Of a DNA stretch of 64,000 bases, positions 1 through 30,603 are shown one piece after another. The translations under genes and the position numbers were made by a program. The stretch's first letter is position 1. Each line of letters starts with the position of its first letter. This stretch comes from Amyelois transitella (lineage: Eukaryota > Arthropoda > Insecta > Lepidoptera > Pyralidae). The notes under the pieces are model-generated. The model made no database searches. It worked only from the letters and a program-made list of their open reading frames with translations, and was not told the DNA's origin. Location of the stretch: contig NC_083507.1 of assembly GCF_032362555.1 (NCBI RefSeq), positions 6,141,001 to 6,205,000 on the forward strand, read 5' to 3'.

Positions 1-3000
1 GTTACAACATTTTGGATGAAACAGAAAGGATGTTCCGCACCAAAGTACAAGTTACTATCCCTAAGTTTAAGATTGAAACCGAGATTGACTTGAAATCTCT
101 TTTACCTAAGGTATTTTTTTTTATTATTCGTACTGCTTTATCGTTCAACGAAGTTTGAATATACTTGTTTAGAGTTAAACTATAACTATGTTATTCTCAT
201 TTGGATATCCTTTTCAATTCTGTCTTAGTGAAACAGTTTACAAAAAAACTATGGTTCATGGTCTTTTTAGTTTCTGGTCACATTTTTATGCCGCATTGCT
301 GGAATTAGGACTTTCTTGCTCCTGTATCTATAAAAAAGATACATCAGCATTATTTATTTAATCACACCGGATTTTTATGTCATTCCAGCTGGGAATTAAA
401 CAGATCTTTGATGAAGAAAATTCGGGTTTGACCAAAATCCTTAATTCGGGTGAAAAAATCCATGTTTCCAAAGCGATACAAAAAGCTTTCATCGAGGTGA
501 ACGAGGAAGGAGCGGAGGCCGCTGCTGCCACGGGTAAGCAACCTTCTCATAATTTTACCTGAAGTGTGTATTTCATTTGACTAAATTCAGAAGTCGTAAA
601 TAATTCAGTAACTAATTGGAGAAAAGTGAAATAAATTATATTAGGAAAATTTCTAGAAGCGCATATTATTTTCTATTCAATCAGATGTCATAAATGATTC
701 AGTAACGTATTCAGACAAGTGAAATATCACTCAGGAAGTAGCTGTCATGAAACGATAATTCCTGATTGACCAATACATGAATTAATTTTATTCATTATGA
801 TGATATAGCAGATGTTTAGTAAATGATGTATTTCATTTTTTCGTTAAGGATGGCTAAGTTTCTGTGTCATTAAGCGGGGGCTTGTAGTTTTTAATCATTC
901 CTTATAACTGTAATGTCCTGATGCTTTTGTGAACTAAGGACAAAGTTAAATATCTAGTTATTTAGTAGACATTAGTTTAATTGACAAACACATGGACAAC
1001 GAGACTAAACGTATTGCCAAAATTATGCGTTAATTTACATAAAAAAGAAACCTTTGGATCAAGATATTTCAAGCAAAAGAGAAAAAGCCATTGAAGTTGT
1101 TTCTGAAAGATAATATTGATTTATTGAAACAAATTATTCTGTCATATATATTTATCAGTTTACCTTTAAATGATAAACAAGTGATATTAAATTATCTAAT
1201 GACGGTGGTTTTTATCTTGCATTTGTGGAATGTGCTTATTGCTGTCCATTTCTAAATTATTTATTTTCTACGTATGCACTGAACATATGTATATCTGCAC
1301 AATAACTTGTAAAACGATAGATGAAACACGCTAACCAGCATTTTCTTTTATCTACAAATGCGATAAGTTGTTGGTAAAACAACGATAGGCATGCATGTAC
1401 TCTTATGTAGGTACCATAATTACGAACTAGTATGATTTTTTGGGTGAATCATCGACCAATTTCACCGATACACGATGACCTGTTTGTTGCAAACGTGCGT
1501 GTTATCTCATGGGCAACTAAGTAGGTATATACTAGTAAAATTATGCCTGTTAATATGCAAAAATACTCAGTTTGTATTTTTACAATTTAATAAATATTCT
1601 CTTGGTATCTAGAGGCATGTGAGTCCGTCGCCAAGAAAAGCAAGTGACGCTCAAGGGCACTACATACCTTCTTTCGAAAGGTTGCGTCGTTTTGCATATT
1701 CCAAGAAACCCTCTAGTTTGCTCTAATGTGGCTGAATGACAAAAAATTTCACGCACACTTTTTATTATGGTGATGGTTCATAAAATTGCTTGTTGTTTAA
1801 TGTTTGCATTGGACGTTCTCACATTAGTGTTTTGTCAACCATCGATCACGATTAAGCGTCCAAACAAGTTACTAATAAAATAATGGTCAATCTGTTCTAT
1901 TTTTTTATACATAAATTCGATTGGTTGGTAAAAATTTAATGTAATAAGAGCGGTCCCTGTGAATCGTTTGCGAGTGTATACGTGTGCGGCGCAGCTGGAG
2001 TTGTGCGCGTACGCCGTTCGATGCCGAGCCCGCCTGAGCAGTTCCGCGTGGACCGGCCGGCGCTATGGTGTCTTCTTGTGGATCAACAGATGATATTTGT
2101 AGCCAGATTCCAACCAACCCCGCTTCCGAATACTCAACGCGATGAACTTTAAGCTAGTTCCACGAGCAAATATAAATATTGATCTGTAACGACGATATTA
2201 AATTTTTATTATTTAAATTAGTTAGGTACTTGTGTTGTAACTAAGTGGTCGTACACTTTTTAAAAATCTTTTGCCCGTGTAACTAACTTCCCTTGGAACA
2301 ATCGAGAGTGGGGTGAATGGTGTCAGTGGTATACATAGATAAATTAATGACCTCTCAGAACTTAAAAATAGTATTAAGTACCCATTGCAGTTCCACCTGC
2401 GCTGCCGTCGCCCCGCTCCCGCGCAATCTTATTGCCCGTGGTCGCACCATGGGCCCGTACAAGACGTGTAAACTTGAATCGTTAGTGCTAGAATCTGCAC
2501 CTTTCCTTTCGTTATTGACTTTATTGGTTTTATTTCTAAACTCATCCGAAAAGTCTAGCTCTTTGCACAGATGTTGGAGCGTAATGGATCTATAATAGGA
2601 TCCCAAGCCTAGCATTACCTACTCTCTAGTAAGGAATAACTTAAGTAGTACGGGCCCTGACCGGTGTCCCCCCGCAGGTATGGTGATGGCGTTGCGCTGC
2701 GCAATGCCGATGCCCCCGCCGCGATTCTGCGCAGACCGACCATTCCTCTATCTACTCACTGGCTCCGATCACACCATTCTCTTCATCGGCGTGTACTGTG
2801 GAAAGAAATAAATTAATATCCTCTTAATTGTTATTTAAACAACTTCGTTGTAATGTAATTTATGTAATTCGTGAAAGTTAAGATATTACCACAGTGATTA
2901 TGCACAAGCATGTTATTTGTCGTTTACAGTATACGCACCAGCAAATAATTCATTAATTCACCATGAAAACATGATTTATCCACTTACTTAAAATCTATTC

Positions 3001-4901
3001 ATGTAAAACCTATCTTAAGAATTATTCTTAGTAAGAAAAATGTATGGAACATTTAAGGTAACTACTTAAATGAAGAGTATGCAATGTGTGTGACTCCTTT
3101 AGCTAGAATTTAATATCTTTATGTATGTAAAGGATAAAGGTCAACAAAAAACAAGTAATTTACAGCGACATTTTATGTTCATATTTCACTTTATATGATC
3201 GTTTAGAAATACACCTTCCTCAAACCTTGTACCTAACCTCAAACAATGTCGGGTTAGTTTAATCATGTGATAAGTATGTAATACATTTTGGGACGTCTTT
3301 CAGCCATGGTGGTCGCGATGTGCATGGCCATGGTTGGGGAACCACAGGTGCCAAGGTTTGTCGCTGACAGACCTTTCTTGGCCGTTATACTGGACCAAAA
3401 TAGCGTTCCCTATTTCTACGCAACTTACGCCGGGAAAAAATAATACTGTACAAATTTTAAATTAATGTTATTGAAAAATAAAACTATTATGTGTACAAAT
3501 AATACAACTAGTCGCATTTATTTTATGGTATTTATTTCAGATTCAAGTTAAAAGATTTGTGCATTTTAAGCTTTTATGCGTACTAATAAAACCTTATCTA
3601 TATCCAAAGAGTTTATAACCGGTATTGAACAAGAAGCCGTTATACAAACAGTGTAGGTATACCTATTATACATATTACCTACCTATTATTATATCAATAT
3701 AAATCGTTTGACTGGTCAGTATTACTATTACCAGTAGTTGTAGCTCAGAATTATTAATAGTACCACTAACGTAGTTGTAGTTCTTTTATACATGCAGTCC
3801 GATTTTAACCAACACCTTGTTAAGAAAAATGTTTCTTCATATGAACTGTTTATGGTTATAGGAGCACAATCTTGGCTTAAAAACTTAAATGTAATTAAAT
3901 ACATTATATTATTCTGTTGTAAAGGTTACTTCAAAGTTTATCGAAAATTTTATGTCGTCGTTAAGTATTTTAAGTTTACAAACATGATGGTTCGATCCTA
4001 AGATGATTGCATAAAAAAATTACTTTAATGTTGTTTAGACGGGTGTCAAGTAAGATTAAAGTGTGAAATTCTCTCTCTATCTGATTTATAGTTTATTTAT
4101 TTTTTACAAAAAGATCTTCAAGTGAAAACGTGAATCAGTCAGTAATTTAACTTGGTGCTTAGGTACTAAACATTATGGAAATGAAAATATTTATTTCATC
4201 TTTGTTAATACTTAATAGTTTGTGAATGTTTGGATTATATTTATTATGTGTGTCCAACTGTGGTTATATATTTTTATATTTGCGTATTTAAAAGAAATAA
4301 TCTTCCTTATTTTATTTTTGTCATAAACGGAGACCTGTTAGGTATGTGTATTTAGACTTTTTATTGTTTAATATAAACATTTATTTAAGAATGTTGTTTT
4401 TCATTTCCTATCTTACTGTGAGGGTATCCTCAGTAAAACAAATATCATCCTTATACCTATAAGATTAGCATCTTTCTTGGTAACTACTGTACTGTACATA
4501 TAAAGTTCAAATTTATAGTTACACTTTCGATATTCAAAAATTAATGTTACGTGTCCAAAAATATTTTTTATTTGGGGACCAAAAAATCTATAAGTAGTCC
4601 CGATATTATTAGGTATTTTTGTTTATTTACAGCAGCCAACGTAACGCTGAGATTGAACGCTCCAATTTGTGATGTGTTTAACGCCAACCATCCGTTCCTT
4701 GCCGTTATTATTGTTAAGAAAAAAGGTTTTTGTTTCAAGAGTGGTTTGAAGCCAGTTACACTCTTTTGGTTAATATATAGAGGTGGCAAGCAAAATATTA
4801 TTCAGAAATGCTTACAATGCTTGATGATTTCGTCCGGGGCGATCAAAGAAAAACTTAATAAGCGTAGTAACAGACATGTTAAAAATGTTGATCCTACTTA
4901 G
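1..4901 (+). CDS. Inhibitory serpin, 3' part, with shared hinge exon and alternative last exons
   Basis: Partial gene cut by the left window edge. The first visible exon (to 110) encodes the serpin strand VTIPKFKIETEIDLKS. It joins in phase 0 to exon 389-533, which begins LGIKQIFDEENSG and runs into the hinge EVNEEGAEAAAAT, the small-residue P17-P8 pattern of inhibitory serpins. That exon ends at 533 with one base of a split codon (donor GTAAGC). Four downstream exons each begin after an AG in the matching phase, encode a different reactive loop followed by the serpin C-terminal strands, and carry their own stop: 1995-2152, 2678-2811, 3304-3443 and 4633-4901. This is the alternative-terminal-exon design known from Manduca serpin-1 and Drosophila Spn42Da (Spn4). 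The product should be a secretory-pathway suicide inhibitor of serine proteases. Gene identity as serpin is near certain; orthology to a named serpin is inferred. Confidence 0.95.
534..1994 (+). other. Serpin intron, no further exon seen
   Basis: AT-rich intron between the hinge exon and the first alternative last exon. I looked for the serpin C-terminal pattern (an F..DRPF-like strand followed by a hydrophobic strand) after AG in the right phase and found none before 1995. Confidence 0.5.
1995..2152 (+). CDS. Serpin alternative last exon A: RVRR reactive loop and C-terminal RDEL
   Basis: Joined in phase to the hinge exon (split codon G+CT), this exon reads AGVVRVRRSMPSPPEQF, then VDRPALWCLLVDQQMIFVAR and ends NTQRDEL-stop. 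The DRPA strand and the IFVARF strand occupy the positions of the serpin DRPF and FxGR segments. RVRR matches the furin-type R-X-R-R consensus and sits at the scissile-bond region; by simple counting from the hinge P1 is the first or the second Arg of the RR pair. The final RDEL is a KDEL-type ER retrieval signal. Drosophila Spn42Da makes an isoform with a dibasic RCL and a C-terminal HDEL that inhibits furin, so the same role is inferred. The exon is GC-rich relative to its surroundings. The polypyrimidine tract before the AG at 1993-1994 is weak, so splice usage needs a transcript. Confidence 0.85.
2678..2811 (+). CDS. Serpin alternative last exon B
   Basis: The acceptor is CCCCCCGCAG, phase 1 as required. 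The peptide begins GMVMALRCAMPMPPPRFCADRP and continues FLYLLTGSDHTILFIGVYCG before KK-stop. The ADRPF and ILFIGVY segments are textbook serpin C-terminal strands. Counting from the hinge puts Arg in ALRC near P1, suggesting a trypsin-like target. AATAAA overlaps the stop codon (around 2806), so a very short 3' UTR is possible. Confidence 0.9.
3304..3443 (+). CDS. Serpin alternative last exon C
   Basis: The acceptor is GTCTTTCAG, in phase 1. The peptide begins AMVVAMCMAMVGEPQVPRF, then VADRPFLAVILDQ and ends YATYAGKK-stop, with the same terminal GKK as exon B. The DRPFLAVIL strand is diagnostic. The P1 region (MCM) is hydrophobic or Cys, so a chymotrypsin- or elastase-like target is a reasonable guess. 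AATAAA follows at about 3477. Confidence 0.9.
4633..4901 (+). CDS. Serpin alternative last exon D with long C-terminal tail
   Basis: The acceptor is a tandem CAGCAG (AG at 4631-4632 or 4634-4635), and both choices keep frame, changing one Ala. The peptide reads AANVTLRLNAPICDVFNANH, then PFLAVIIVKKKG and, after an eight-residue excursion, VTLFWLIYRG. The NHPFLAVII and VTLFWLIYR stretches fit the last two serpin strands. LR in TLRL falls near P1. The reading frame continues about 38 residues beyond the usual serpin end, giving a Lys/Asn-rich tail of unknown role. It is less conserved than exons B and C, and the stop at 4899-4901 is the first in frame. Confidence 0.78.
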
Positions 4902-5404
4902 CTGTATTGTTTTGTATGTATTATATTGTAATACTGTTTTTTTTACGTTTCTTTATTTGTAGATAGTGTTTAAATAGCGGGAAGAGCATTGCAACTGTGA
5001 ACATGCGAAGATGAGAGTGTATTAATATTGTTTTATCGTGTCAATGGCTTTAAAGTACCTATATAATAGCCCAGAAAGTAGCGGCGTTCACCGCCGAGCC
5101 ATAGGCCGCAGCCAAATTATCCTTTGTACATTAGTAAAGATAGCTACGGGGCCCGACAATATTTGATCCATCGTCTTCACGCCTGGAGAACCCTTCTTTT
5201 TCTGCAATCCATTGCATCTACCCACGCTCTAAGACCCACACCAGAACGGACGAACAGAACAGAATTTATGCCCAGGAGAAAGTTTTTGTCATAAGGTAGG
5301 TAACTGTGCGATGTTAGTGTCTAAATATATGAAAGAGTTGAAACATTTACCTATATGCAAGTAAATTGTAATGTTAAGTAGATCAATAGGTACCTACCTA
5401 ATTT
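4902..5404. other. Downstream flank of serpin, no gene seen
   Basis: AT-rich flank with a short GC-richer patch around 5080-5270. No serpin-like strand, no other domain and no clear repeat could be recognised. Confidence 0.4.
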
Positions 5405-5672
5405 GTACATACATACATACATATGGTTACGTCTGTATCCCTTGCGGGGTAGACAGAGCCAACAGCCTTGAAAAGACTGAATGGTCACGTTCAGCTATTT
5501 GGCTTAATGATAGAATTGATTCAAATAGTGACAGGTTGCTAGCCCAGCGCCTAAAGACGAATCCCAAGTTTGTAAGCCTATCCCTTAGTCGCCTTTTACG
5601 ACATCCATGGGAAAGAGATGGAGTGGTCCTATTCTTTTTTTCCATGGTGCCGGAAACCACACGGCACACGGT
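5405..5672 (-). repeat. SINE-like (CATA)n-tailed repeat, near full length
   Basis: It starts with CATACATACATACATATGG, contains GGGGTAGACAGAGCCAACAG and CGCCTTTTACGACATCCATG, and ends near GTGCCGGAAACCACACGGC. The same roughly 260-bp sequence recurs at least fifteen times in the window in both orientations with varied truncation. Read in its own sense it opens with GTGTGGTTCCCGGCACC (a B-box-like motif) and ends in (TATG)n, so it behaves as a retroposed short element. Confidence 0.85.
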
Positions 5673-5873
5673 ACCTACTTTGTTAACATTAAATACTTAT
5701 CGAATAAAATAAGCGAAGTAAATGTTGTTTGGCGTTTATATTTTATTGAGGCACTTTATAAACGCTATTGTAGTACCTATTTAATTCATTCGTTTTGGTT
5801 AAACCATACGGAGGTGGTATAATAAAATTGCAAAACAATCCAAATAGGTACCTATGTTTAAGTCATATACCTA

Positions 5874-7095
5874 ACTAGCTGTTGCCCGCGACTTCGTATG
5901 CGTGGAAGAGTCGCAAATACCACAGGAATGTGGTGTGTGGCATTTATGAAAAGTACCCGACGTCATTCTCCAGACTGTTCTTAGACCCCACAAATAATAA
6001 AGAGAAAATATTTGTATTTTTGTATGTTTGTAACGAAGATACTCAAAAGCTTCTGGACTTTTTGGCGCATATAATATGTAGAATAGATCTTCGGAAGTGA
6101 CTTAGGCATTTTTATAGAATTTTCATGGAAATGAAGCCCTGCCTTAAAGCAAGTTATATGTATATATACACAAAATTTCAAGAATATTGCTTCAGTAGAT
6201 AACGCGTGAAGAGACAACAAAGAAACAAACGTTTGCTTTTATAATATTAGTTGGGATTCAAAAAAAAGTCGAATAACCACAACGGAAAATATAAAATACC
6301 TACTAGCTGTGCCCGCGACTTCGTCCGCATGGAAAAGTTATTTTGGGCATCATTGAATGAATAATTTTCCCTGTTTGTTTCACATTTTCCATTATTTATT
6401 CGCTCCTAATAGTTGCAGCGTGATATGATATATCATCACGGAATAATTCTTTCATACATATCTATGTATATTTTTGGCATCACCGTTTTCGCAGCGCAAG
6501 CAACGGAAGCCCTCAAGGATGAATATTTTAATTCCCGTTTTTTTCCACATAATCTTTTATTTCTTCGCTTCTTATAGTTGCAGTGTGATGTTACATAGCC
6601 TTAAGCCTTCCTCGATAAATGGTCTAATTAACACAAGAAGACTTTTTCAATTCAGTAGTTCCTGAGATTAGTGCGTTCAAACAAACAAACAAACTCTTCA
6701 GCTTTATAATATTAGTATAGATAGAACCACCATATATTTCTTTATTCCTAAACTAGCTTCCGCCCGCGACTCCGTCCGCGCGGATGTCGGTCTTCGCGTG
6801 GATGGTTTATTTCTCCATTTCGAGTAACACTGACAATGACACCCTATAAATATCTATGGACCCAAATACCTACGGGTAACGCAACGTGTGTTCGCGGTTC
6901 TACAGAACATAAATGGATGAATGGAATGGATAAAACTGAAAAATTAAGATTTATTTTTTTCTACGTATTTTCCCAGGATAAAAAGTATCCCATTTTATGT
7001 CCAGGATAATAAGGTATAATTATACCAAGTTTCATCGAAATCGAACCATTAGTTTTCACGTGATGCCTGAACATACAGACAGACAAAAAATTTTT
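5874..7095 (+). repeat. Three tandem copies of the 'GCCCGCGACTTCGTCCGCG' lepidopteran repeat
   Basis: Copies lie at about 5874-6255, 6301-6722 and 6752-7095. Each opens with ACTAGCTG(T)GCCCGCGACTTCG or a decayed version, and the first two end in TTTATAATATTAGT. The third carries the related ACCAAGTTTCATCGAAATCG and CAGACAGACAAAAA segments. This is one of the commonest interspersed families in moths. I believe it belongs to the non-autonomous Helitron-like Lep1 group, but the class name is from memory. Confidence 0.7.
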
Positions 7096-7754
7096 TAATC
7101 ACATATTTGGGTTTGGTATCGATCCAGTAACATCCCCATGCTATTTATTTTTTCAATATTTTCAATGTACAGAATTGACCCTTCTACAGATTTATTAAAT
7201 GTATAGATTCTAAAGCGTGGGTTTTTGGACAAAGTATCTGTGAGTTGAATTCGTTTTTTTTTTAATTAAAATAATATAGTAATCGGTTCCATAACAAACA
7301 CAAATCACAATCATGCGAAAGATGTTGGGGGATGTTTTACCACACACTAACCGATTAGCGCATTTGATGATTGGTTAGTACCAAATCAACATATATTTTT
7401 TAACAGAATCTAATACAAAGGATGAAAATCTTTTAAGCTATTTTAATACCATGTTCTTAACGTTTTTCTTTTATGCACACTTCAGTAGGTATAAAATTAT
7501 TTAAACCTAAATGCCTACTTAGACATTAACCACGGACATAACTGATTGCAGTTTCATGGACACTACTAGCTAGCCACTACTTCTAGTATGATAAGAAATT
7601 TGATTGCGTGCGGTTCTGATATCAAATTGTTTACAAGATTTGTACAATGTGAATACAAACGAAAAATAAAAATTACAGAATTAAATTTAGGTTTTGCTTA
7701 TATTGAGTGCGATTGTGATTTTAGCGAGCGAATACTATGAGAATGTAATTAAAG

Positions 7755-10700
7755 ATGTTAAAGTTTTTTTTGTTGATGATGTCATTCAAACATTATAGTG
7801 AATCTCTTCGAATTTTTCCGCGACCAGTTTATCACCTGACAGCACCATCGCGTCTTCAAGTATACAAATGTAGAGTACTGCATCGCTGTGGAGACCTGGT
7901 AGACTTAGAAGATCTTAGTGGACAAGAATATTATGATAAAAATAATAATTTAAGAATGGTGCATCATTATGTGACTAAGGATACAATAGACGCGTTGATC
8001 AACCCATATTTCGAAACGACAAGTAAACCGGCCACTGATAATTTTTTTTACAATAGTATTCCTTTAAATTCACACCTAGGGAATCACTTTATTTTTAATC
8101 ATCCCACCTATGATGTCAATAACTACAGATCAAGTTCTCCAAAGTATGATCCGACTCCTATGTCAGTAAGTTCTTTAACAAAATTGAAAGAAATCGTAAC
8201 GAATAAGGTCAAAATTGCTTCACGCATATGGAATGCAAAGCATCGTTATTTCGAATCCGATATACCATCATCATTTGCCAAAAATGAAATTGACACACTT
8301 GGTGCTATTAATAAAAGCAATGTTCCTTCACATATATTCAATACAGAGAAAAACTTATTTGAATCTGAATCATCAGCAATACCCGATACTGAAATTGACT
8401 CGAGTGTTGATAAAGAAGCAAAACACTATCTAGAAAGTCACATATCCGATAATACCACTAATATTTCATTAGCTCATTCTCAGAGATTGTTACTAAACGA
8501 ATTTAAAATTGGGTTGGACAAACTTGAGCGGCAATTTTACATGGTAAGACTTATATCATTTTACCTACTGCCTTACTTGAATATCCATGATGAGCAAAGA
8601 TGCCTTCAAGACCTATTCTAAAATAATTCCATCCATAATATGCATTATCTTAATTAAGACCTTTCCTGCAGGTCTTTTTAAATAACAGAGGTTTGTGTTA
8701 AACCACCAGACGTTTCGCCTGGTTTTTAAACTTTTTCAGGTGACATTCAACAAACTTAAAAACATGACTGCCGGCGGGTCTCGTGCTGAAAACGCTATCA
8801 GTTTCGTCCAGTCCGCCCTCTTCGTGCAGTTGATATTGCTGGCGGTGTCCATTGACAGTGATAACGATGTGAAGATGAAAATTGACAACTGCATTGGAAT
8901 ACGAACGCACATTTCAGACGCAGTAAGGACGTATTTATACCGTATTTATTTTCAATATCTTAAAATAGTAAAATCACGAAATTAGGACTAATACAAAGAA
9001 TAAAAAAGATGGTTCGCGTTTTGCTGAACCGATTTTGATGGGGTTTTCAGGAAACTATATGTTACACTTAAGAAGAGGTTTCAGAGTTTCTGAAACCGAC
9101 TTCAAAAAGGAGGATATCGAATGAAGTCGGTTCACTTGTTACAAAAGTTATTTTTGTAGTTAATTAGATACCTAAGTGTGAAGTAACCGATTACAATTGT
9201 AAGTTACAAGTTTGAAATATTTTTTAAATTATACCAATTAGTAAAAAATGTGTCCATTTTAGGAAAGAATACAACTTATAGATGATGTTGTCTCGTCATT
9301 GCCAACTGCGAGTCACGGTTTGGTATTCCGCTGGTCATCTCACTTAGTGTTGGGACGGAACTATAATGTTAGCGACGCATTCAGAAATGGCGCTGCAGTT
9401 GCATTGCGTCTACATTTGGACCAGTTCAATGGAACAGAATCTCCGAAAATACTAAGTGAAATATTGAATCGAATGGTAATTACTTCACCACCCCAATAAC
9501 AATCTCAGTTCGATCTAAAGTTTTGGCTGGCAGAGAATGCATTTATTTTACCTAATGTATATTTTTTGTTGCTTTCTTTTTTTTTCTTACGCGTTTCGGC
9601 ACTATACTTAACCCTTTTTGTCCTTAGGGCTTTGACTCCAAGCAGTTGGAAATGAGATGCCTACGACGATTGGGTTTAGGCTATGTTGAGATTATCTTTC
9701 CTAATATCTGTGAAGTTTATTATAGGTATTTGTTTGTTGTAGGTGGAAGAAGATTCTAATGGCGCTATTCATAATACATTCGAACCAGAAGACCTTTCTG
9801 GGACCATCAGCGCAGTCTTCTTAACTACCTTATACCTTCGTAGTCGATGGCGTACTGCGCCAACTGTCTTAAATGGTTCCAGGATCTTCCGAGATGCGTA
9901 TGAAGACCCTGATAGGACAATTCGCATGATACGCATCAATGACATGATGCGGTACGCCAATCTCATCGATTGCGATGCTGAGGTAGGTAAACTACTTAGT
10001 GATAATGTTTGAAATTTATTGAAGTTTAACCAAAATACATGAATTTTTATATTGTGATAGTGAAATAATACTTAATTAATGTACTTATTTTGTCTTATAA
10101 TGTAAATAATGACTACCGTTTTTATACATTAATTATCTGCTGGAATATAAGTGACAATCAATATTAAATATGCTAAAAGAGAAATAATAAATACCACACT
10201 ATTTATGATGTTACAAAATGTTACCCAGTCATTAGTGGTGCGTTGAGTTTCACTGCTGGTGTTACCTTCATCTTCTGCTAATTTCGTTTTCAATGAGTCA
10301 CTGGGGTCAAACTCCGTGAACACCACATATTTACCTGGACCCGTTCTCACGAGATGAGCGACGTATGTGATCCATCTAGGAGTCGGATCTTCGCGCTTCG
10401 TGAGTGTCATTAGCAATAACGTTACCAGGATTCCAACCAGTGTCAGCAGCATGGAGTCGCGGACAAAGAGTAAAATAATGGGTGTATCCGCTCCGTGTTT
10501 TGGAATATCGTATCCAATTTCCGTCAAAAATATAAAGTGACCAAAAAGACTAAAGCATAATAGCAACAACCTTATGTTGTCTTTTACTCCCAATAAAAGC
10601 GATGTCAACGTCAATAGAACTATTACTATGGAGGGAACAACCACAATAGCTGCTGGTCCGGCGGCTTCCCTCTTCAGTACAAACGTATACTTTAACATTG

Positions 10701-13700
10701 GATATGTTTCATTGGGACAACAGGCATATTTCCCTGGTAATCGTTCGTTCGCTACACGCAGAAGTCGCCAAGCTGGCCCGTTTTGAAAATCACTTAAAAC
10801 GACAGGAAGGTTTGGATAAAAAGTGTAATTCACTTGTTCCCCTTTGTGCATCCAAGAGCCGAAGTATAAAGTGCAATTTTGGCGATCGTAAGGCCATCGT
10901 CGAAGCGAAGTGCTGCAGATCCCAGAATGTGCAATATGTGGCACACATGTGACGTTTCCTACAAACCCTAAGGAACAAGTGGTGAAGAATTGATCTGACT
11001 GGTACATAGTTGCATCAGAGTTAAATAACGCCATACGTGGTATCCAGATTTCGTGACTTTCAACTTGGATTTCTTTGATGTCACCATAGTCAGTCGGATT
11101 CCATGTTAAAAATTCGTCTATCCAGTTCATCGCCACCCAGCTGTGGACGGTGAATGTTTCTTCGAGATAGTCAAAACTTAAGTACTTGACTGCAAAGCGT
11201 ACTTTTACAGTTACAGCCTGGGTGTGATTTTTCACAGGACGATAATCGCTGTTATAGTCGGTGAACAAATCTTTATGAAGTTGGGCTTCTTGATGTAAGA
11301 TCTGCTCCCGGTAAATATCCGCGCTGGTGAAGGGAAATAGGAAAATCCAGAGGATTGCACTCCTAGTTACACGGTCCATGGCTGATCACTCACTAACGTT
11401 GGTGTATTTGAGTAACATATACTTTTGGGTTGGTACTGGTGTTATGTGATACTCTTACACCGCCCCCAAAGATAAGGAAAGTGCGTGTGCCATCTGCAAT
11501 AGTTATTTGTATATTTATCTTATATTATGGATCGCCCGCAGGATTGCTCTCGTTTAAATTTTAGTTCTTGTGTGTTTTTCTGATGTCTATATTAGCTACT
11601 GTAAAGTTTCATTCAAATCCAAATGAGCAAGAAATAAGTGCCGTGTGGTTCCCGGCTCCAACAGAAAAAAGAATAGGACTACTCCATCTCCTTCCCATGG
11701 ATGTTGTAAAAGGCGACTAAGGGATCGGCTTACAAACTTGGGATTCTTCTTTTAGGCGATGGGCTAGCAACTTGAATCTTTTGACATTTGAATCTCAATT
11801 CTATCAATAAGACTTTTAGCTCTGTTTACCCCGCAAGGGATATAGACGTGATGATAAGTATGTATGTATGAATTTTCGGTGACCGATTCCGCGTGTAGTA
11901 CTAAGATGACGTATGAGGCGAATAAAAGACATCAAAAATGTGCTCTAATCAACATCGCTATTTGAGACGGGTTGATGTAGATTGTAAAAAAAAAAATAAG
12001 TCATCGAACATTTGATATTATCAGTTTTACACAGATTGAGGTACAGCTTGTCTCGGCGGAAAAAACACAGCCTACTAGTAAATTATACCTAACGGGAGGC
12101 ATACGATAATTATCGCTAATGTAAAACAATTCGAAATGTGAGAATCACGGAGCCTAATAGGAATACTTAGTAGAAAGTGCCCCTGATCTGTTACACGAAC
12201 ATGAGGCAAAATAATATGTATAAGGTTCCATTTCATCCGGTGGAGACATAATGAGCGACATAGATTTTGAGTCTCCCTTGGATGGAGACCTCGAAACTTA
12301 AATAATTATATATCCTTTCATCTCAATCTGTACATTGCAGGGCCTGTATGCTGTCTCTGATAAATGAACCCACTGGTATATATGATCTGTCCGAGTCGAC
12401 ACGTTCAGAAGAAGGCCTAAACAGTTATGTTCCACCCAAAGATTTTTAGTGCAAACTATTTACTTTTGTTACAGGCGATCGAAGTTTTTTACGGTAAGCC
12501 TGGTCTCAGCGTACTTATTTTGGTGCCCCGTGGACCTTCGCTCAGGAGACTGGCGGCGTATGTGGCCGAAGTAGGGTTGCCTCTCATTACGGGCGCCATG
12601 AGGAATGTAAGGGTAGCTGCTGATTTGCCACTCTACACCCTTCGAATGTCACTGTTATTGCCTAATAAACTTGAGGGAGTAAGTACCTGTCATGATACTT
12701 GTATAACAAACTAGCTTTTGTCCGAACCAGAAAATGTAGCCAATACTTTACCTAGAATTTAACTTTATCCATACAATATTTTGTCAAAATCGGTCTAGCG
12801 ATTGATCGGTAATAAAAACGTAATAGACAGACAGACTTTTGCAATAAAAATATTTTGTAGTATTTTATTTTGAACTAGCTGTTGCTCGCAACTCCGTTTT
12901 CGTGTTATTGGAAATACGAAGGTTACGGTAATTAAATTTACTCAAATTCACCAAAATACTCGTAAATTGAAAGATAACTTACAAACTTGGGATTCTTTTT
13001 TAAGCGATGGGCTAGCAACCTGTCACTATTTGAATCTCAATTCTATCATTAAGCTGAAGCATTTAGCTGAACGTGGCCATTCAGTCTTTTCAGGACTGTT
13101 GGCTCTGTTTACCCCGCAAGGGACATAGACGTGACCATATGTATGTATGTATGTAAATTTAAACGAAGTTTGGCATTACATAAGATATAATTTCGATTAA
13201 CAAAAAAATACTTTATATCCCGAAATTCTCACGGCAGCGAAGCCCCAGGGCATATACATACATACATACTGAAAATCACACCTTTTTCCCTTAGGGGTAG
13301 GCAGAGACTACGTCTTTCTACTTTCCACGATCTCTGCATACTTCCTTCGCTTCTTCCACATTCATAACGGATTCGGGTACTCTTGACCTGACCCTTTGAC
13401 GTCCTTAATTTGATCAAGATACGTTCGTCTAGGCCTTCCCACTCCAACCTTTCCCTCCACACTCTCTTTGTAAAATACTGTTGACAGCACATATTTAATA
13501 ATCCGTACTAAAATTAAATAGAGAAAAAATATTCGTATTTTTGTTTATAACGAATAAACTCAAAAAGTAATGGACTGATATATCATCAGGCAGAACAACT
13601 TTTGCTAAGACGTCATTTCCGTACATATTACAGAGTAGCTGTCCCTTTGGCTTCCCCATCAGATCCAGATCTTCCAGTTTTTTTCGCCAAAAGAATATGC

Positions 13701-16700: not shown

Positions 16701-19700
16701 CGATAGAGTAGTTAATCAGCCATGTGAGCTGACTCAGGCCATGTGTGCCTTGCGATAGAGTAGCTAATCAGCCATGTGAGCTGACTCAGGCCATGTGTGC
16801 CTTGCGATAGAGTAGCTAATCAGCCATGTGAGCTGACTCGGGCCACGTTTGCCTTGCGTTAGAGGAGTTAATCAACCATGCGAGCTGACTTCATGCCATG
16901 TGTGCCTTGCGATAGAGTAGCTAATCAGCCATGTGAGCTGAACATGGGCCGTTTGCTTCTCATGTTAAGGTATAAGGTATGATCCTCGGCCACGTGTGCC
17001 TCGGAATGGACATAGCATATGGTAGAATTAATGGCAGGGACAGACTGTTTTGAATATAAGAGTTATATGAATGGTTCTTCAAAAAAAACTATATGTTTTA
17101 TGTATGTAATAGATACTTCGTTCCGCAAAAGTAGTAAAGGTTCTTATAATATAATGAAGGGTTCCTCCTTAGCTGTTATTAGTAGTAATTATGTAATATT
17201 ACAGCCTTTATCTTTTTATTTTGAGGTAATGGAGCGAAGGAAACATATCAGAGAAAAAAGGAAAGGTCCTGCATGTTCACTCTTGCAACACAATAAGCGA
17301 GCAAATACTAGTACGAAATCTATAACCTCAATGGATAGGTGGGAGATTGAAGATGTGAGTCAAAATTCGCCACCAATTACCCTTAATAACCAGTCGACGA
17401 TGGAGGAATCTGACAGTGCATTCTCCCCCGAAGATGTTATGAAGTTGCTTATTAACTTCCAGAAGAATAAGGCACATTCTAGTAATCTTCATAACAATCA
17501 GCTAAATAACGTTATACCGGAGTTTGATCCATCAAATAAAATGCAGTCTGTGGATAGTTGGTTAAATAAAGTTAATGAATGTACCGTGATATATGAATGG
17601 AACGAGAAGCAAACCATACATTTTGCTTTACAAAAACTTGCTGGCCAGGCAAAAAAAATGGTATGAATCACTTCAGACAGTTGTATTTACGTGGGAGGAA
17701 TGGCAGTTCAAAATTAAAAAGGCTTTTCCCAATGAGCAAAATTATGGTCGGCTACTCGAGGAAATGTTAGCACGTACTACTAGGATAAGCGAGAGTTTTT
17801 GCGATTATTTTTATGACAAGCTTAGTCTTATAAATCAATGTAATATCGTAGGAAAGAATGCAGTAGACTGCGTTATACACGGAATTACAGACAAGTCTAT
17901 TAGAAATAGTGCACAAGCTTTGAATTGTAAGGATCCAGAAGACTTACTGGGTTTTCTCAACTCCCAAAAAACATCCGAGATACCCTACTTTAAAAGGCGC
18001 GAAATACTTAACAAGGATTTAGGTGACCGAGGCAACAACAATCAGTCTACTTTAGATAAGAAAAAAATAATTTGTTTTAATTGCCGTACGGAAGGTCATA
18101 CATTTCAAAAATGTACAAAACCCTTAATTAAATGTCAAAAATGCAACAGAGTCGGCCATAACGATTCGACCTGCCGAATAAATCCATGAATGTAGTCTGA
18201 TGCGAGACTCTGATGCAAATAAGTTATCTTTAGCTTGAATATACACTGAACTTCCCCTTATTAAAGGATTTGATCAACTTGACGGTAGTTCCCAAATACA
18301 AAAGTTTTATACAGTTAAAGCTGGACGAAATAGGTCACCCGGGAATAATAAAAACAGTTGAGAAAGTCCAAAGTCAATTCTGGTTTCCCAAACTACGCCA
18401 TTTTGTACAAAAGTATGTGAAATCATGTATTGAATGTGCATACAATAAAGACGAGGCGTGTCATAAGAAAACTGGCCACTTATTTCCAATCGAAAAGGTC
18501 AGCAAACCATTTCATACAATACATATAGACCATCTTGGCCCATTCACCAAAAGAATAAAGGGTTATTTATACTTATGTGCTCACGATTGTAGACGGATTT
18601 ACAAAATACTTGTTTGCAAAACCGGTAAAAAAACTCAAAGCACAATAAACGTGCTAGAAAATCTGTTTAATGATTTTGGATTACCATGTCGCATTATACA
18701 TCGACCGTAATTACCGACATAATTTTTGTAAAGCACACGGAATTAAACATGTACTTAACGCAGTCGCGTGTCCCAGAGCGAACGGTCAAGTAGAACGTTT
18801 TAATCAAACTATCTTGAGTGCAATGGCTAAACATAATACAAACAAGAACGAACGCGACTGGGACACGTGTCTGGGTAAGAGTCAGTGGGGCATCAACAAC
18901 ACTGTACACGCTGCAACACGTACCTCTGCAGCAGAAGATCTATTTGACACACAGTTTAGAGATAACTTAACAAATAAACTTAACATTAATGTAGATCAAT
19001 CAATAAAAACGTTGCTGAATTAAAAAAAAAAAAAAAATAGACTCAAACATAAGACATGACCAAGAAAAGCAAAAGATACGATATGATAAAAATAGAGTTC
19101 CTGCGGCAGTTTTTAAGAAAGGAGATATTGTAAAAATTACGAGAACAAATTTTTATAACCAAGGTAACAGTACAAAACTTATGACAAAATTCATGGGCCC
19201 TTATAAAATTACGAAAACATTAGGTAACGATAGATATAGTTTCAAATATACCCAGCTTTAGCAAAAATAACAGAAAGTTTGAGAGTGTTGTAGCAGCTGA
19301 CCGCATAAAGCCATGGGTTCAATCGGAATCTATGGACAGTGACACAAGTAGTACCATCGAATCCACCGATGAAAGCGATGATAATATTCCATTATCGGAA
19401 CTGCAACAACGCATCAAAACTATAATTAACGATTATTAGTCAACCGTTTCATTTTTGTTTTTAATTTGATAAAATTGAGAAAATAATAATTTCTAGGTAT
19501 GCTAACAAGTACGAGTGTCGTGATTATTTTTGCTTAAAACTTGCTTTTATTTTTCTTTTGTCTTATATAATTTTCTGTTATTTCTATTAATTGCTGTTAT
19601 AAACATGTTTGGTTTCCGCTAATTGAATTATTAATTATTGATTATTGTTATAGTGCACCAGGAGGTTGCACTGAGTAGGACGGCCGAGTGTCGTGATTTG

Positions 19701-22341
19701 CTGTTTTCTTCAGTATTTTTACCAATTATATTTAAAATCGACTTGTTTTGTTAATTATTCGATAATCGATACATATAATTTTAATAAATATAAGGCAACA
19801 TTCCAATAATTGCACAACACGAACATGTAAACATTTGTTACCAAATCCTCCAATCATGAAGCGTCGCGCCATTTTAGATCAGCCAATAAGATTCCAACCT
19901 GTTGTATTTTTTATTTTAACCATTAAGCTTCACTTGTCAAATGGAATCAACAAATCAGGGAAACTAATTTTGAATTTTTAGTCTATGGTAGTCCTTACAT
20001 GATTGGAGATTGACCTTACCAATCGAAGACATTAAAACGTTTTTCGACATTTCGTATGAACCAAGTGGGGATGACAGTTTTCCTTTTTGGATAAAATTTT
20101 TAGAAGTTTGTCTTGATTGATTCTCCAAGAAACAAACACGAATGCTCGGTACGAGAGCTGTTATAATTATTATTATAAAGTGCTAAGAGTTATTGTTGAA
20201 ATTAAGACTCAATAAAACAGTAAAGAAACAAGAAGAGTTTTTATTCACAAAACTTATGTGGCGACATCTCTACGCCACAATTCACAACAACCAATTACGC
20301 AACGCTATCAGTCAAAAACAGCGAAAATCTTAATCATAAGCAAAGATTACACGGATTGGAGCATATGTAAGTATACAACCTCCGACACAACATCGTCGAA
20401 GCTGCAGTTCCCCAGGCCTAGCCTTGCCTGGCGGCAGATCTTCCCTTTGTGGCGTTCGAGCCCGAACTATCGCTCCTGCTTCAGCTAACAGCTGCTTTTA
20501 TCCCCGCGTACTTTGTTAAATTAATTATGACCCTAGTCTCGATCTACACCAAAAGGGATTTAGTCGTGATATGTGTGATTGATAAATGACATTAATCGTG
20601 TTTTTATAGATAAATAAGTACCTATTTGAACAAACAAAAATAGAATTAACCAACTTTTAGTCGTGCAGTTAACGGTGTTGTCTTGATCAAGCAAGAGGTA
20701 CTTATAAGCTTTCCAAGATTAAAATAGCACGTTGATAATGTAATATGAGTAGGTACTTTTATTTCCATTTGCGGAACTAAATAAACGCGTGTCCAACAAC
20801 CCATAACATTGATACTTAGCCATTTTCTTCAATTCACGTGCGTCACGTGGTGTTAATTAATTATACCCAGTAAATAACAGGTTTTAATTAAACTTAATTG
20901 TAAGCGAAATTCGTTTTCCCTGTCACAGATAAGTATAAGATGTAAACTTTTTGTTACAAAATGTTAGAACTATGCACACAGAAACGGCCGGTTAGAAAAC
21001 GCGTAATTATGAATCAATACAAACATTGAGGCAAAGGGATTTATTTTAATATCTACCTGCGCATTATTGACACGTCTGCAACAATGGTGATTTTTAAATA
21101 CCATTACCGTGCCGTGTGGTTCCCGGCCTTTAGATGACGTCACATTTCTAATACCTATTGGATTTTATTAATTTTCTCAAAAATACATCGATACCAAAAA
21201 TCAACTGATATTTTGTTGGATCCAGAATAGTAAAATGAAGAAACAGTTATTTTTGTTTGGGTTCTTAAAATAATTAAATGTTGTCAATTAGCACATTCAC
21301 CTAGAAAGCTTTCATGCTGGTCAACAAAGGAAAAAAAATTGTGTGTGCCAGCTGCTTCTTTTTCCACCCAGATTGTGAGGTCAATCAAGGCAAAGGCTTG
21401 TGAACACGGGATCTTGGAATCCCAAGTTTATTACTCACAAGGTTTATAAATTTTACCTGCCTACTTCCTAAACAAGATCTTCATATTTTCGCAATTCCAG
21501 TGGAACTTCAGCCTAAGTGGCTTAGCTTTGAAGCAGCTTTTTCCAAATTTACTAAAGTTATCACTTGCTTCACTTTAATCGTAGTTATTAAGCCCGATTT
21601 ACAAAAATACGACGCTGTGCTGTGATATGCGCGGCTTCCCACGCGCGCTTACAATCGCCTCAATTCCAACATAGACGACAATGTTGGTAATCGGGCGATT
21701 TTTATTTGACGGCCTCTGTGGCGCAGCGGTAGTGCGCTTGTCTGTGACATCGGGGGTCCCGGGTTCAAATCCCGGCCAGGGCATGATGAGAAACGAACTT
21801 TCTCCGATTGGCCTGGGTCTTGGATGTTTATCTATATAAGTATTTATAATAAAATATAGTATCGTTGAGTTAGTATCTCGTAACACAAGTCTCGAACTTA
21901 CTTCGAGGCTAACTCAATCAGTGTAATTTGTCCCGTATATATTTATTTATTTATTTATTTCACTATACGAGACTTTTCAAAATGCAAACAATGTAAAACA
22001 GATATAAAATTACCCATTATTAAAAAACAGTGGCCTGTTCGCCGCAGTGGTAATGTTTCTGCCTCAGAACTGGTTTGGGTCAAGATCAAAATCTTTAGGT
22101 ATAGGTAAATTATTTAGTGTTGTTTAGTTTGTATCCCATGACACTAGTCTTGAACTGTCTTTCGGGCTTGCTCAGTGTGATTTTTGTTGTTTATTATTCA
22201 TATCATAATATTAGTATCGCTTTGGTTTCAGGTATCGAGTGGGATGACCCGCCACATATGAGAATCGTCGTTGATAGGCCATATTTGTTTTTTGTTAGAT
22301 GGTATAATATGACACTTATGAATGGCAATTTTGTATTATGA
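7755..22341 (+). CDS. Serpin-like protein with long N-terminal extension, probably non-inhibitory
   Basis: Seven exons splice in frame: 7755-8543, 8740-8922, 9263-9475, 9743-9982, 12475-12678, 14256-14376 and 22232-22341, giving about 619 residues. Residues 1-20 look like a signal peptide (MLKFFLLMMS...). The next roughly 220 are a Ser/Asn/His-rich region I do not recognise. The serpin fold then follows in order: AENAISFVQSALFVQLILL (helix region), AVFLTTLYLRSRW (the NAIYFKGxW strand), AIEVFYGKPGLSVLILVPRG (the ELPY..lSM strand), LGLSDLLHTDN, and VVDRPYLFFVRW in the last exon. The hinge equivalent EAGRTAFKDDG has Arg at P14 and no Ala run, which argues against loop insertion and hence against protease inhibition. 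It is the neighbour of the inhibitory serpin on the same strand, suggesting a cluster. Function unknown. Confidence 0.85.
9000..9150 (+). repeat. Interspersed repeat fragment in serpin intron
   Basis: It contains GCTGAACCGATTTTGATG and ACCGACTTCAAAAAGGAGG, motifs common in moth introns, with an inverted echo (GAAACCGACTTC versus GAAGTCGGTTC). The class is not assigned. Confidence 0.45.
10129..11379 (-). CDS. Divergent nicotinic-type Cys-loop receptor subunit, intronless
   Basis: A single 416-residue open frame. Residues 1-20 form a signal peptide (IFLFPFTSA). The Cys-loop spans C155-C169 with exactly 13 residues between and the WPYDRQNC ending. Vicinal Cys220-Cys221 (YACCP) mark an alpha-type ligand-binding loop C, and WPYD with upstream aromatic residues supports the extracellular domain. 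Four membrane segments are visible: about 241-263, 268-287, 299-323 and 389-411. The M3-M4 loop is short. M2 lacks the usual GEKISL start and reads KDNIRLLLLCFSLFG, which is unusual for a cation pore. The gene lies antisense within the fourth intron of the serpin-like gene and has no intron of its own, as expected of a retrocopy or an old nested gene. It could be one of the divergent insect nAChR subunits. The start is the ATG at 11379, directly before the signal peptide. Confidence 0.92.
   Translation of the reverse strand: MDRVTRSAILWIFLFPFTSADIYREQILHQEAQLHKDLFTDYNSDYRPVKNHTQAVTVKVRFAVKYLSFDYLEETFTVHSWVAMNWIDEFLTWNPTDYGDIKEIQVESHEIWIPRMALFNSDATMYQSDQFFTTCSLGFVGNVTCVPHIAHSGICSTSLRRWPYDRQNCTLYFGSWMHKGEQVNYTFYPNLPVVLSDFQNGPAWRLLRVANERLPGKYACCPNETYPMLKYTFVLKREAAGPAAIVVVPSIVIVLLTLTSLLLGVKDNIRLLLLCFSLFGHFIFLTEIGYDIPKHGADTPIILLFVRDSMLLTLVGILVTLLLMTLTKREDPTPRWITYVAHLVRTGPGKYVVFTEFDPSDSLKTKLAEDEGNTSSETQRTTNDWVTFCNIINSVVFIISLLAYLILIVTYIPADN
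11640..11871 (+). repeat. SINE-like (CATA)n-tailed repeat
   Basis: It starts GTGCCGTGTGGTTCCCGGC and ends CGTGATGATAAGTATGTATG. It has a full-length head and a slightly shortened middle, in the sense orientation. Confidence 0.85.
12709..12910 (+). repeat. Decayed copies of the GCCCGCGACTTCG repeat family
   Basis: AACTAGCTTTTGTCCGAAC, then GTCAAAATCGGTCTAGCGAT and AGACAGACAGAC, followed by a second head AACTAGCTGTTGCTCGCAAC. It lies directly after serpin exon 5. Confidence 0.55.
12978..13154 (+). repeat. 5'-truncated SINE-like (CATA)n-tailed repeat
   Basis: It begins at ACTTACAAACTTGGGATTC, contains GGACTGTTGGCTCTGTTTAC and ends CCATATGTATGTATGTATG. It lacks the GTGTGGTTCCC head. Confidence 0.8.
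13251..13475 (-). repeat. LINE 3' fragment (tail at left)
   Basis: On the reverse strand it encodes the same C-terminal segment as the better copy at 44888-45285, including the [18 protein letters not shown] and RWK regions, and ends in (CATA)n. It is 5'-truncated and frame-broken. A small 24-bp tandem duplication (TCAGACGTCTTTTCCATAAT...) lies just beyond at about 13715-13762. Confidence 0.7.
14532..15098 (+). repeat. 5' LTR (567 bp)
   Basis: It begins TGTCGTGATTTGCTG, contains an AATAAA signal (CTCAATAAAACAG) near its end and runs to CAAAACTT. It is identical to 19689-20255 apart from one base. Confidence 0.85.
15099..16159 (+). other. Retroelement leader with a CpG-rich island
   Basis: Non-coding leader between the LTR and the minisatellite. 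It includes an unusually GC-rich stretch at about 15735-15825 (GCCGCGTTGCTATGATACGC... to ...CGACTCGCGCGCTGAATTAA) within otherwise AT-rich DNA. No recognised coding domain is present. Confidence 0.5.
16160..16941 (+). repeat. 52-bp minisatellite, about 15 copies
   Basis: A head-to-tail array of a 52-bp unit containing AATCAGCCATGTGAGCTGAC, then TCAGGCCATGTGTGCCTTGC, then GATAGCGTAGCT. The unit is itself two related halves (GCCATGTGAGC and GCCATGTGTGC). The period is a strict 52 bp across the core, so it is not in a coding register. Later units change GCG to GAG (CGATAGAGTAG), and edge units are more diverged. Eleven successive units contain TGACTCA (first at 16262, last at 16782). Confidence 0.95.
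17229..18189 (+). pseudogene. Retrotransposon gag with one frameshift
   Basis: From MERRKHIREKRK the frame runs through a gag capsid-like region (FDPSNKMQSVDSWLNKVNEC) to LAGQAKK. It then breaks at an A8 run (17651-17658), where the continuation WYESLQTVVFTWEEW lies in another frame. The second frame ends with two CCHC zinc knuckles (CFNCRTEGHTFQKC and CQKCNRVGHNDSTC), the nucleic-acid-binding end of gag. One extra A would explain the break; slippage or a base-calling error in the homopolymer cannot be excluded. Confidence 0.85.
18270..19439 (+). pseudogene. Integrase remnant of the retrotransposon
   Basis: It opens with an HHCC zinc finger (GHPGI...RHFVQKYVKSCIEC), then the catalytic core start (HIDHLGPF). 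A frameshift near 18700 is followed by the core end ANGQVERFNQT with the catalytic Glu. A further break at an A15 run (19022-19036) precedes the C-terminal GPY/F module (KFMGPYKITKTLG) and an acidic tail ending at 19437-19439. No reverse transcriptase precedes it. The enzyme cannot be made from this copy as read. Confidence 0.85.
19689..20255 (+). repeat. 3' LTR (567 bp)
   Basis: Same sequence as 14532-15098 with one difference. It is preceded by GAGTAGGACGGCCGAG and followed immediately by a different repeat family starting TGTGGCGACATC. Confidence 0.85.
20257..20490 (+). repeat. Copy of the TGTGGCGACATC repeat abutting the 3' LTR
   Basis: It shares most of its sequence with 53314-53540, including CACGGATTGGAGCAT, CAACATCGTCG, CGGCAGATCTTCCCTTT and CGAGCCCGAA. 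It starts one base after the end of the 3' LTR. It may be a solo LTR into or beside which the retroelement inserted. Alternatively it may be leader sequence following an LTR, since TGGCGAC resembles an insect gypsy primer site. Confidence 0.65.
21705..21965 (+). repeat. tRNA-derived SINE
   Basis: The head GGCCTCTGTGGCGCAGCGGT shows an A box (TGGCGCAGCGGTAG) and a B box (GGTTCAAATCC) in a CCGGG/CCCGG T-arm. The acceptor stem pairs poorly, so this is a SINE and not a tRNA gene. The body contains GGCCTGGGTCTTGGATG and AGTCTCGAACTTACTTCGAG, and the tail is (TATT)n. Pol III transcription is expected from the boxes. Confidence 0.88.
22028..22200 (+). repeat. Degenerate second copy of the tRNA-derived SINE
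   Basis: It keeps GTGGCCTGTTCGCCGCAGTGG, CCCATGACACTAGTCTTGAAC and GCTCAGTGTGATTTTTGTTG. It sits about 30 bp upstream of the last exon of the serpin-like gene, so it may supply part of the splice-acceptor context. Confidence 0.65.
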
Positions 22342-29114: not shown

Positions 29115-29732
29115 TTATTGAGAAATTCCATAATTAACCCCACCTGTGTTGAGCCCCGTGTTTTCTGAGGCACCGCCGCCCACGGCTGGCGGCGCGGGCA
29201 TGGCAATGGGGGGTGCCTGGTCCCCTTTTGGACGACCCTCGCCACCTGGCTGCACTGTCACTGCTTGAACGCCGTCTGAATCATCGCGCTCCAACGTGTG
29301 ATAATCCCCGGATTCTTCTGGAGGGCGAGGCTTGCACTTCCCACAGCAGCAGTTACAGCAGCAGCACAAGCAACAACAGAAGTAGCATCCGGTGAGAATT
29401 CCGCAAATCAAGAATACTGCTTTACACCATGTACTTGTAACTACGAAATAGGCATTGACGTTTTCTTCTCCAAACTGTTCGGCTATGTACAATCCGAGCG
29501 ATCCGTAATTATCGTAAATATTTCTCTTGGTCGCGTCGCTAAGTATTGTATGTGCTCGATTAACTTCTTTGAACTTGTCTGCTGCTTCCGGATTGTTCGG
29601 ATTTTTATCGGGGTGGTATTTTAATGCCAATTTTCGATAGCTTTTTTTCACATCATCTGCTGTAGCAGTTTTAGGTACTTGTAGTATTTGATACAAACTA
29701 TCGCCTGCAGTGGAAAGTTTTCTTTTATCCAT
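29115..29732 (-). CDS. Csp: Cysteine string protein (DnaJC5 family)
   Basis: An open frame of 205 residues from the ATG at 29732. An in-frame upstream ATG at 29762 exists, but [17 protein letters not shown] matches the family N-terminus. Residues about 15-80 form the J domain with the HPD motif ([17 protein letters not shown]). The linker is followed by the palmitoylated cysteine string [18 protein letters not shown], then an acidic and Pro/Gly-rich tail. Known function: palmitoyl-anchored Hsc70 co-chaperone on synaptic and secretory vesicles that keeps SNARE proteins folded. No intron interrupts the frame. A donor-like CAG|GTGGGG lies near the C-terminus (GLNTGGVNY), so an alternative C-terminal splice cannot be excluded. 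Confidence 0.96.
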
Positions 29733-30603
29733 TTTTACAGCTAACTTGCGAAGATAATACAATTTTCGCCGATAAGAAACAGTGAAACAATAAACAATTA
29801 TGGAGGAAAATGTAAGAAATTACTCTTTTTTGCTGTCAAGCCACAAGCACACGACAGGCAAGACCACAAACAACATAGAGTTGACAGGACAGAATTCATT
29901 CCTTTCATTCATTTAAAGACAAATCAGTGTTGCCATTGCCAAAGAATAATTACATTATTATGTACAGAACATGTGAACAGACTCCCCTATGATTGCAGTG
30001 CAGGGAGTCTGTTCATGATAGTAGACAAGGCATAATGTAATTAGTCTGTATGTATTTTTAAAGCTGGGTATGGTTAATATTTATATTTCCTTACCATCTC
30101 CCTCGTACTATTACTTCGGAAAATCAAAGTCAAACTATCGACCGTTATTGCAATTTAGAATAGAACCACTTCATATATTTCTCATGGATGACGTAAAAGA
30201 CGACTAAGGGAGAGACATATAAACTTGGAAAAACCTATTTAAACTTGGGGTAGCAACCTATCGCTATTTTATTACATCGGCACAACCATGCAGACTTCAG
30301 ATTGAGTGGCGACACTGCTTCTTACATATAGCTAGTCAGTGTCGCTGATAAGGAAAGGAAACAAGTACTTACGAGATTTAAAAATTACCCCATTTAGTTA
30401 CTGTTAGTAATGTTAACACGTGATAAAGAATGGTTAAGTGTTTTTAAATATTTAATGGTTCATATCAATTTTATAACTATAATAATAGTTTAAAAAGAGT
30501 TGTCCTTGCTGGCATGGAAGAAATGGAAATAGAATTTAATAAAGAAAATGTGTCACAATTTTATTTCATTTGATGATAAGTGATCTCGCTACATGATCAA
30601 CAG
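29733..30603. other. Intergenic upstream of Csp with a foldback patch
   Basis: 5' flank of Csp on the reverse strand. It contains the hairpin at 29946-30045 and a degenerate SINE-like (CATA)n-family fragment at about 30180-30262 (ACGTAAAAGACGACTAAGGG). No coding exon recognised. Confidence 0.45.
29946..30045. repeat. Two-step hairpin of about 100 nt
   Basis: The inner arms TGAACAGACTCCC (29974-29986) and GGGAGTCTGTTCA (30003-30015) pair perfectly. The outer arms TAATTACATTAT and ATAATGTAATTA extend the foldback. It could be a small MITE, or the stem of a transcribed hairpin. Confidence 0.75.

Follow-up and report, generated by a model that had tools for sequence, protein, structure and literature searches.

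The locus analysed here raises the question of whether a moth serpin gene carries, among its alternative terminal exons, one encoding an ER-retrieved inhibitor of furin-like proprotein convertases comparable with Spn42Da (Spn4) of Drosophila. The window, i.e. the whole stretch of DNA analysed, comprises 64,000 nucleotides of the Amyelois transitella genome (C3:6141001-6205000 of the 327-Mb assembly), and the 10-kb block upstream of the window (L036) was included in the analysis. The exon at issue (exon A) is probably a genuine mutually exclusive terminal exon yielding an ER/Golgi-retrieved convertase inhibitor, with splicing, folding, retention, and target all predicted from sequence features.

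Within the window, the gene lies on the forward strand. The 3' part of a shared core exon occupies positions 1-110 (the whole exon comprises L036:9801-10000 and positions 101-110 of the window) and is followed by a donor, GTATTT, at 111. The last shared exon (389-533) ends with the inhibitory hinge (...VNEEGAEAAAAT plus G) and is followed by the donor GTAAGC at 534; the hinge EEGAEAAAAT is present in the shared core, which encodes a serpin domain with an inhibitory hinge. Exon A (1995-2152, stop included) follows an acceptor AG at 1993-1994 and encodes the RVRR loop, the serpin C-terminus, and RDEL. The R-V-R-R codons are located at 2006-2017, corresponding to P4-P1 in the register of fly Spn42Da-A, and a KDEL-like tail is formed by the RDEL codons (2138-2149) and the stop that follows to 2152. 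The donor at 534 leaves a single base, G, and G plus CT starts exon A, which reads AGVVRVRRSMPSPPEQFRVDRPALWCLLVDQQMIFVARFQPTPLPNTQRDEL and then stops. Three further alternative terminal exons, none of which has a retention tail, lie downstream, namely exon B (2678-2811; loop ALR-CAM), exon C (3304-3443; loop AMC-MAM), and exon D (4633-4901; loop TLR-LNA). In exon D, the insert between strands is unusually long and the C-terminal extension, also long, runs to 35 residues. All four exons start in the same phase, matching the donor at 534. The first-pass annotation had placed an exon in the required splice phase ahead of three other alternative exons, with RVRR followed by Ser at the scissile region and RDEL as its last four residues, and it was right in both coordinates and letters. 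A possible poly(A) signal, ATTAAA, is found at 2197-2202, 45 bases past the stop of exon A, but carries little weight because 18 AATAAA/ATTAAA sequences occur in 541-7700. A short GC-rich patch is also present between exons A and B (2390-2470); joined to the core, it scored 86.7 bits, no gain over control ORFs, and therefore gives no evidence of a fifth exon.

Upstream coding exons were identified in L036 at 6521-6627, 7736-7870, 8479-8685, 8932-9030, 9305-9445, and from 9801 onward into the window. From 6521 on, they show GT-AG borders and in-frame joins and specify a shared core of 331 residues beginning with MDQKALSS. The frame of the exon at 6521 is open upstream of the core Met and reads LSILLCFSQEIYCTSD; L036:4065-4086 (MWSVLLV) joins to it as V-LSILLCFSQEIYC-TSD. 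This join of 4065-4086 with 6521-6570 is in phase, yields MWSVLLVVLSILLCFSQEIYCTSD, and looks like a candidate signal peptide; it had the highest hydropathy among the seven candidate first exons found across 16.5 kb, a candidate being defined by an ATG start, no more than 25 codons, the matching phase, and a GT[AG]AG donor. With this candidate signal-peptide exon as the first, a total of seven upstream coding exons are in frame with GT-AG borders. A further hydrophobic candidate first exon, MRLLALLVCLSVVP, lies ~15.6 kb upstream of exon 6521. The proposed signal-peptide intron contains an apparent inverted duplication (L036 ~4145-6456), in which mirrored ORFs, e.g. 4749-4856 (minus strand) and 5781-5888 (plus strand), translate identically; judging from ORF positions alone, its arms are perhaps ~1 kb long. 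The full-length chain aligned with 1k9o (266.7 bits) and 4p0f (223.5 bits), the best PDB match being Manduca serpin-1.

Exon A could in principle be a GC-rich patch that is no exon and in which the motifs are accidental. Among 950 AG-phase-1 ORFs of 35-120 aa (469 on the plus strand and 481 on the minus strand), a [KRHS]DEL end was found in two, both of which are exon A, the second starting from an in-frame AG six bases further. In 534-7700, 2 of 50 ORFs (the same two) end with [KRH]DEL and 1 of 50 has R-x-[KR]-R in the exact position as well as the tail, whereas in 300 dinucleotide shuffles of this region none of 9,094 ORFs had the [KRH]DEL end, five had the basic motif at that place, and none had both. 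No other [KRH]DEL-ending ORF was present among 2,798 ORFs (at least 25 aa) in the block of the window gene and three blocks of contig C6. Against Pfam Serpin, the core scored 84.8 bits and the core plus exon A, a partial isoform, 101.0 bits (a gain of 16.2), while four control ORFs of the region joined to the core gave 86.4-86.9 bits (gain of at most 2.1); the scores with exons B, C, and D were 118.8, 113.0, and 104.0 bits, respectively. When a serpin-tail profile was built without exon A, the exon A ORF ranked fifth of 1,498 (E 0.0054; next 0.43), preceded by exons B, C, and D and a single ORF that belongs to another serpin-like gene, and it was again fifth (E 0.032) with a profile built without any moth exon. 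The GC content of exon A is 0.557, compared with 0.37 and 0.32 in its flanks. In favour of accident, the acceptor would not stand out among random AGs, 66% of 3,464 AGs matching it in pyrimidine number. Taken against the shuffles, the control ORFs, and the profile made without exon A, a chance origin was nevertheless rejected as extremely improbable. Other features count against a genuine, functional exon. In a Pfam search made with exon A only, the exon on its own had no match. Its acceptor has 47% pyrimidine over the 17 bases preceding the CAG, compared with 65-71% in the gene's four other acceptors in the window and a mean of 49.5% for all AGs; the AG annotated at 1993-1994 is in the right phase but weak, and the lack of a pyrimidine tract argues against its use. 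Residues H357-P358-F359, F372, and G374 are described as crucial for the fit of the variable exon to the scaffold (PMC4006314); these HPF and FxG clusters are a scaffold feature of serpins generally and are not diagnostic of the Spn4A-type subfamily. The equivalents of 357, 358, 359, 372, and 374 in exon A are R, P, A, F, and A, i.e. HPF has become RPA and FxG has become FxA, with Pro358 and Phe372 retained, and the C-terminal serpin strands annotated as conserved are therefore conserved in part. The search for relatives matched 29 loci from genome contigs, all titled bacterial, and 126 stretches of viral contigs matched the pattern, none of which was confirmed. These collections, by design free of insect genomes, yielded no orthologue. 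In 26 of the 29 bacterial loci (L012, L026, and L029 were dropped, their open stretches being <90 residues), a yardstick uninformative on conservation in moths, residue 359 is Phe in 25 and Tyr in 1, residue 374 is Gly in all 26, and Arg for His at 357 is common (20 of 26). Ala at both 359 and 374 counts against a functional fold, and among the bacterial serpins, exons, and other tails compared, only exon A had Ala in place of Phe359. In mitigation, Gly374 is likewise replaced in exon C, by Ala, and in exon D, by Leu, and Val takes the place of Phe359 in one of the genome's other serpin tails. Exon A may be either rarely used or regulated, or decaying. As a former convertase-inhibitor exon losing its splicing and fold in this species, with RVRR and RDEL as remnants, it would account for the weak acceptor, for Ala at two near-invariant fold positions, and for the lowest tail-profile score among the four exons; we regard such decay as unlikely, given a frame open to a clean stop, two short motifs intact at their exact positions, and a GC content that is still raised.

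The remaining alternative depends on which residue is P1, for which the first-pass annotation allowed an ambiguity of one residue. HMMER aligned the moth loop (T-AGVVRVRR|S) with that of the fly (T-GMAVRRKR|A) without gaps and equally far from the hinge, which narrows the ambiguity, and R-x-[KR]-R stands at P4-P1 of the fly-inhibitor register in exon A but in none of the 26 bacterial serpins at these columns. The usual serpin spacing follows a 17-residue rule. Given the gapless alignment with the fly, the moth motif is spaced like that of the reported furin inhibitor, one residue over the usual 17; the 17-residue count instead makes the first R of RR P1 (V-R-V-R|R), without a P4 Arg, and this counts against the furin reading. 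In the fly inhibitor, R-R-K-R is reported as P4 to P1, experiments favour cleavage after R342, and the density of one crystal stops after that Arg, but section 8 of the same paper instead gives the crystallised fly chain as cut after K341 (PMC4006314). The first R of RR in the moth loop corresponds to the bond at fly K341, and different proteases may cleave either bond. The isoform could accordingly be real but directed against trypsin-like or clip proteases, with the first R of RR as P1, and RDEL would then merely slow ER exit, or the protein would be cytosolic from the internal Met (MDQK). We hold this to be distinctly improbable. The gapless alignment of exon A through the loop to exon B, where P1 is R by the 17-residue count, agrees with it, as do the fly crystal chain cut at K341, the 17-residue position (PMC4006314), and a subclade of seven Cydia serpins of group A1 reported to lack signal peptides (PMC10671500), but the fly furin inhibitor shares the longer spacing and its cleavage after R342 is favoured (PMC4006314), a candidate signal-peptide exon is present in the right phase, and a retrieval tail would serve no purpose in the cytosol.

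The identity of the gene also required revision. The locus had been likened to serpin-1, an identity now ruled out: the genome has its own serpin-1-like gene on another contig (C6), which groups with Manduca serpin-1 (bootstrap 91; 147 of 263 residues identical over the shared core), and the window gene does not. Core identities of the window gene are 125/263 with the C6 gene, 112/266 with Manduca serpin-1, and 106/262 with fly Spn42Da, whose branch had a bootstrap of 36 in a tree of six convenience-chosen sequences, one missing an exon. The serpin-1-like locus at C6:7.88 Mb (L043-L044, C6:7880001-7900000) contains an array of candidate terminal exons that should be useful for work on exon turnover; eight of these were present in the profile list, with acceptors unchecked, and none has an xDEL end. 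Three C6 blocks contain other serpins, and the serpins sampled in this genome are those near six places. Alternative terminal exons have reportedly been found in serpin-1, -15, and -28 in a 2018 survey of Manduca serpins. Serpin-1 of Lepidoptera (Manduca, Cydia, and Bombyx) resembles the window gene in its mutually exclusive RCL exons, as described in PMC10671500, and has a similar core; unlike the window gene, it is represented here by the separate C6 gene without xDEL. The predicted P1/P1' pairs of Cydia group-A1 serpins include M/C, I/C, L/C, and R/C (PMC10671500, Table 2), and exons C (AM-C) and B (LR-C) recall M/C and R/C of this lepidopteran group (serpin-2/15 type). From these predicted P1/P1' pairs, one may guess at a serpin-2/15-like gene. 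According to the same source, seven Cydia serpins in a subclade next to CpSPN2 lack classical signal peptides, CpSPN2 has one, and serpin-2 of three other moths was considered intracellular, which calls for caution in the signal-peptide reading (PMC10671500). Most likely, the window gene is a Spn42Da-like (group-A) serpin gene with mutually exclusive terminal exons.

A second, divergent serpin-like gene is located downstream on the plus strand (8742-10012 and 22105-22341; Pfam Serpin and tail profile). Exons near 9263-9475 and 9743-9985 scored 26.5 bits with Pfam Serpin (cut-off 27), and the profile match at 22105-22338, within a likely last exon ending ...VVDRPYLFFVRWYNMTLMNGNFVL, probably marks where another serpin-like gene ends; we infer that the two parts belong to one gene. 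A long open frame for a ligand-gated channel subunit (10129-11385, minus strand; Neur_chan_LBD, 163.8 bits) is apparently nested antisense in this gene, and the span of the serpin-like gene also includes retroelement remains at 17590-18710 on the plus strand (Integrase_H2C2, 51.0 bits), with a zinc-knuckle-like stretch of 18.7 bits, under the cut-off of 20.8. On the minus strand, the window further contains a DnaJ protein with a cysteine string at 29115-29819 (DnaJ, 94.7 bits), probably the cysteine string protein, and Integrator subunit 8 at 59831-61471 (TPR_INTS8, 119.2 bits).

Together, the hinge, the register, the tail, and the candidate signal exon make a suicide inhibitor of furin-like convertases the best reading of exon A. 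Joined to the shared core downstream of the candidate signal-peptide exon, exon A would complete an inhibitory serpin of ~407 residues that presents the bait R-V-R-R|S to furin-like proprotein convertases and would trap the convertase covalently upon insertion of the cut loop into sheet A. The RDEL tail would allow KDEL receptors to retrieve the protein from the Golgi into the ER, and the inhibitor would then act inside the secretory pathway rather than in the haemolymph. RDEL is reported to be bound by the vertebrate KDEL receptor with a KD of 2.71 uM and to be retained in cells, the values for KDEL and HDEL being 1.94 and 0.24 uM, respectively (PMC8248988); retention by RDEL may therefore be somewhat looser than by the fly HDEL, if insect receptors behave likewise. 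Of the earlier proposal of a secretory-pathway furin inhibitor in a serpin-1/Spn4-like gene, the inhibitor is upheld as a candidate by the register, the reported receptor binding of RDEL (PMC8248988), and the candidate signal exon, and a serpin-1 identity is not. If the exon is used, convertase control by an ER-retrieved serpin would extend to a second insect order, in which the question of shared ancestry versus convergence, as put in PMC2556349, would become testable. Because neuropeptides, hormones, and growth factors are processed by convertases, switching the inhibitor by splice choice would then be a regulatory point worth knowing in moths. Among the matches listed, titles and abstract openings included no lepidopteran ER-retained furin-type serpin, subscription papers being mostly outside this coverage.

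Drosophila has a known inhibitor of this kind, and deuterostomes have such inhibitors as judged by anatomy; the moth exon would be a further example. Fly Spn42Da (PDB 4p0f) resembles the moth gene in having a shared core with four alternative terminal exons, and its furin-type exon is exon 5, the others being 6-8 (PMC2770083), just as exon A is the first alternative in the moth. Both carry the furin motif in the same register and an xDEL tail; the fly chain in 4p0f terminates in ...SSEHDEL, bearing out the HDEL end ascribed to this isoform. Forms with and without a signal peptide are described in the fly (PMC4006314), and the moth has the candidate signal exon and the internal Met. The moth exon differs in having RVRR|S for RRKR|A, RDEL for HDEL, a loop two residues shorter past P1, RPA for HPF, and FxA for FxG; the core identity is 106/262, and orthology of the exons is not demonstrable. 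Local alignment scores were 64 for A-B, 82 for B-C, 35 for A-C, and 23 for A-D, and those of the fly exon with moth exons A, B, C, and D were 48, 52, 56, and 38. The nearest neighbour of exon A is thus exon B and not the fly exon (64 versus 48). The suggestion that the moth locus carries the same option as Drosophila hence holds for the furin register, the xDEL tail, and the candidate signal exon, but not as far as an orthologous exon; a similar caution about shared ancestry and convergence has been given for fly Spn4 and the neuroserpin relatives (PMC2556349). Independent origin of the RVRR/RDEL exon from the fly RRKR/HDEL exon, through duplication and remodelling of exon B in the moth gene, is a tentative and rather unlikely possibility; if true, ER-retrieved convertase inhibitors would have arisen in insects on at least two occasions, with the same kind of splice cassette and the same longer bait spacing. 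In Anopheles, SRPN10 has an isoform with KRAL. An Anopheles homologue of fly Spn4 is cited in this context in PMC4476131. A dibasic bait combined with an ER-retrieval tail, as in exon A, is likewise reported for Branchiostoma Spn-1 (NMMKR|S, KDEL), sea urchin Spu-Spn-1 (TMTKR|S, HEEL), and a Nematostella serpin (SDEL), and the lancelet and sea urchin genes, unlike the moth gene, are tied by synteny to vertebrate neuroserpin (PMC2556349).
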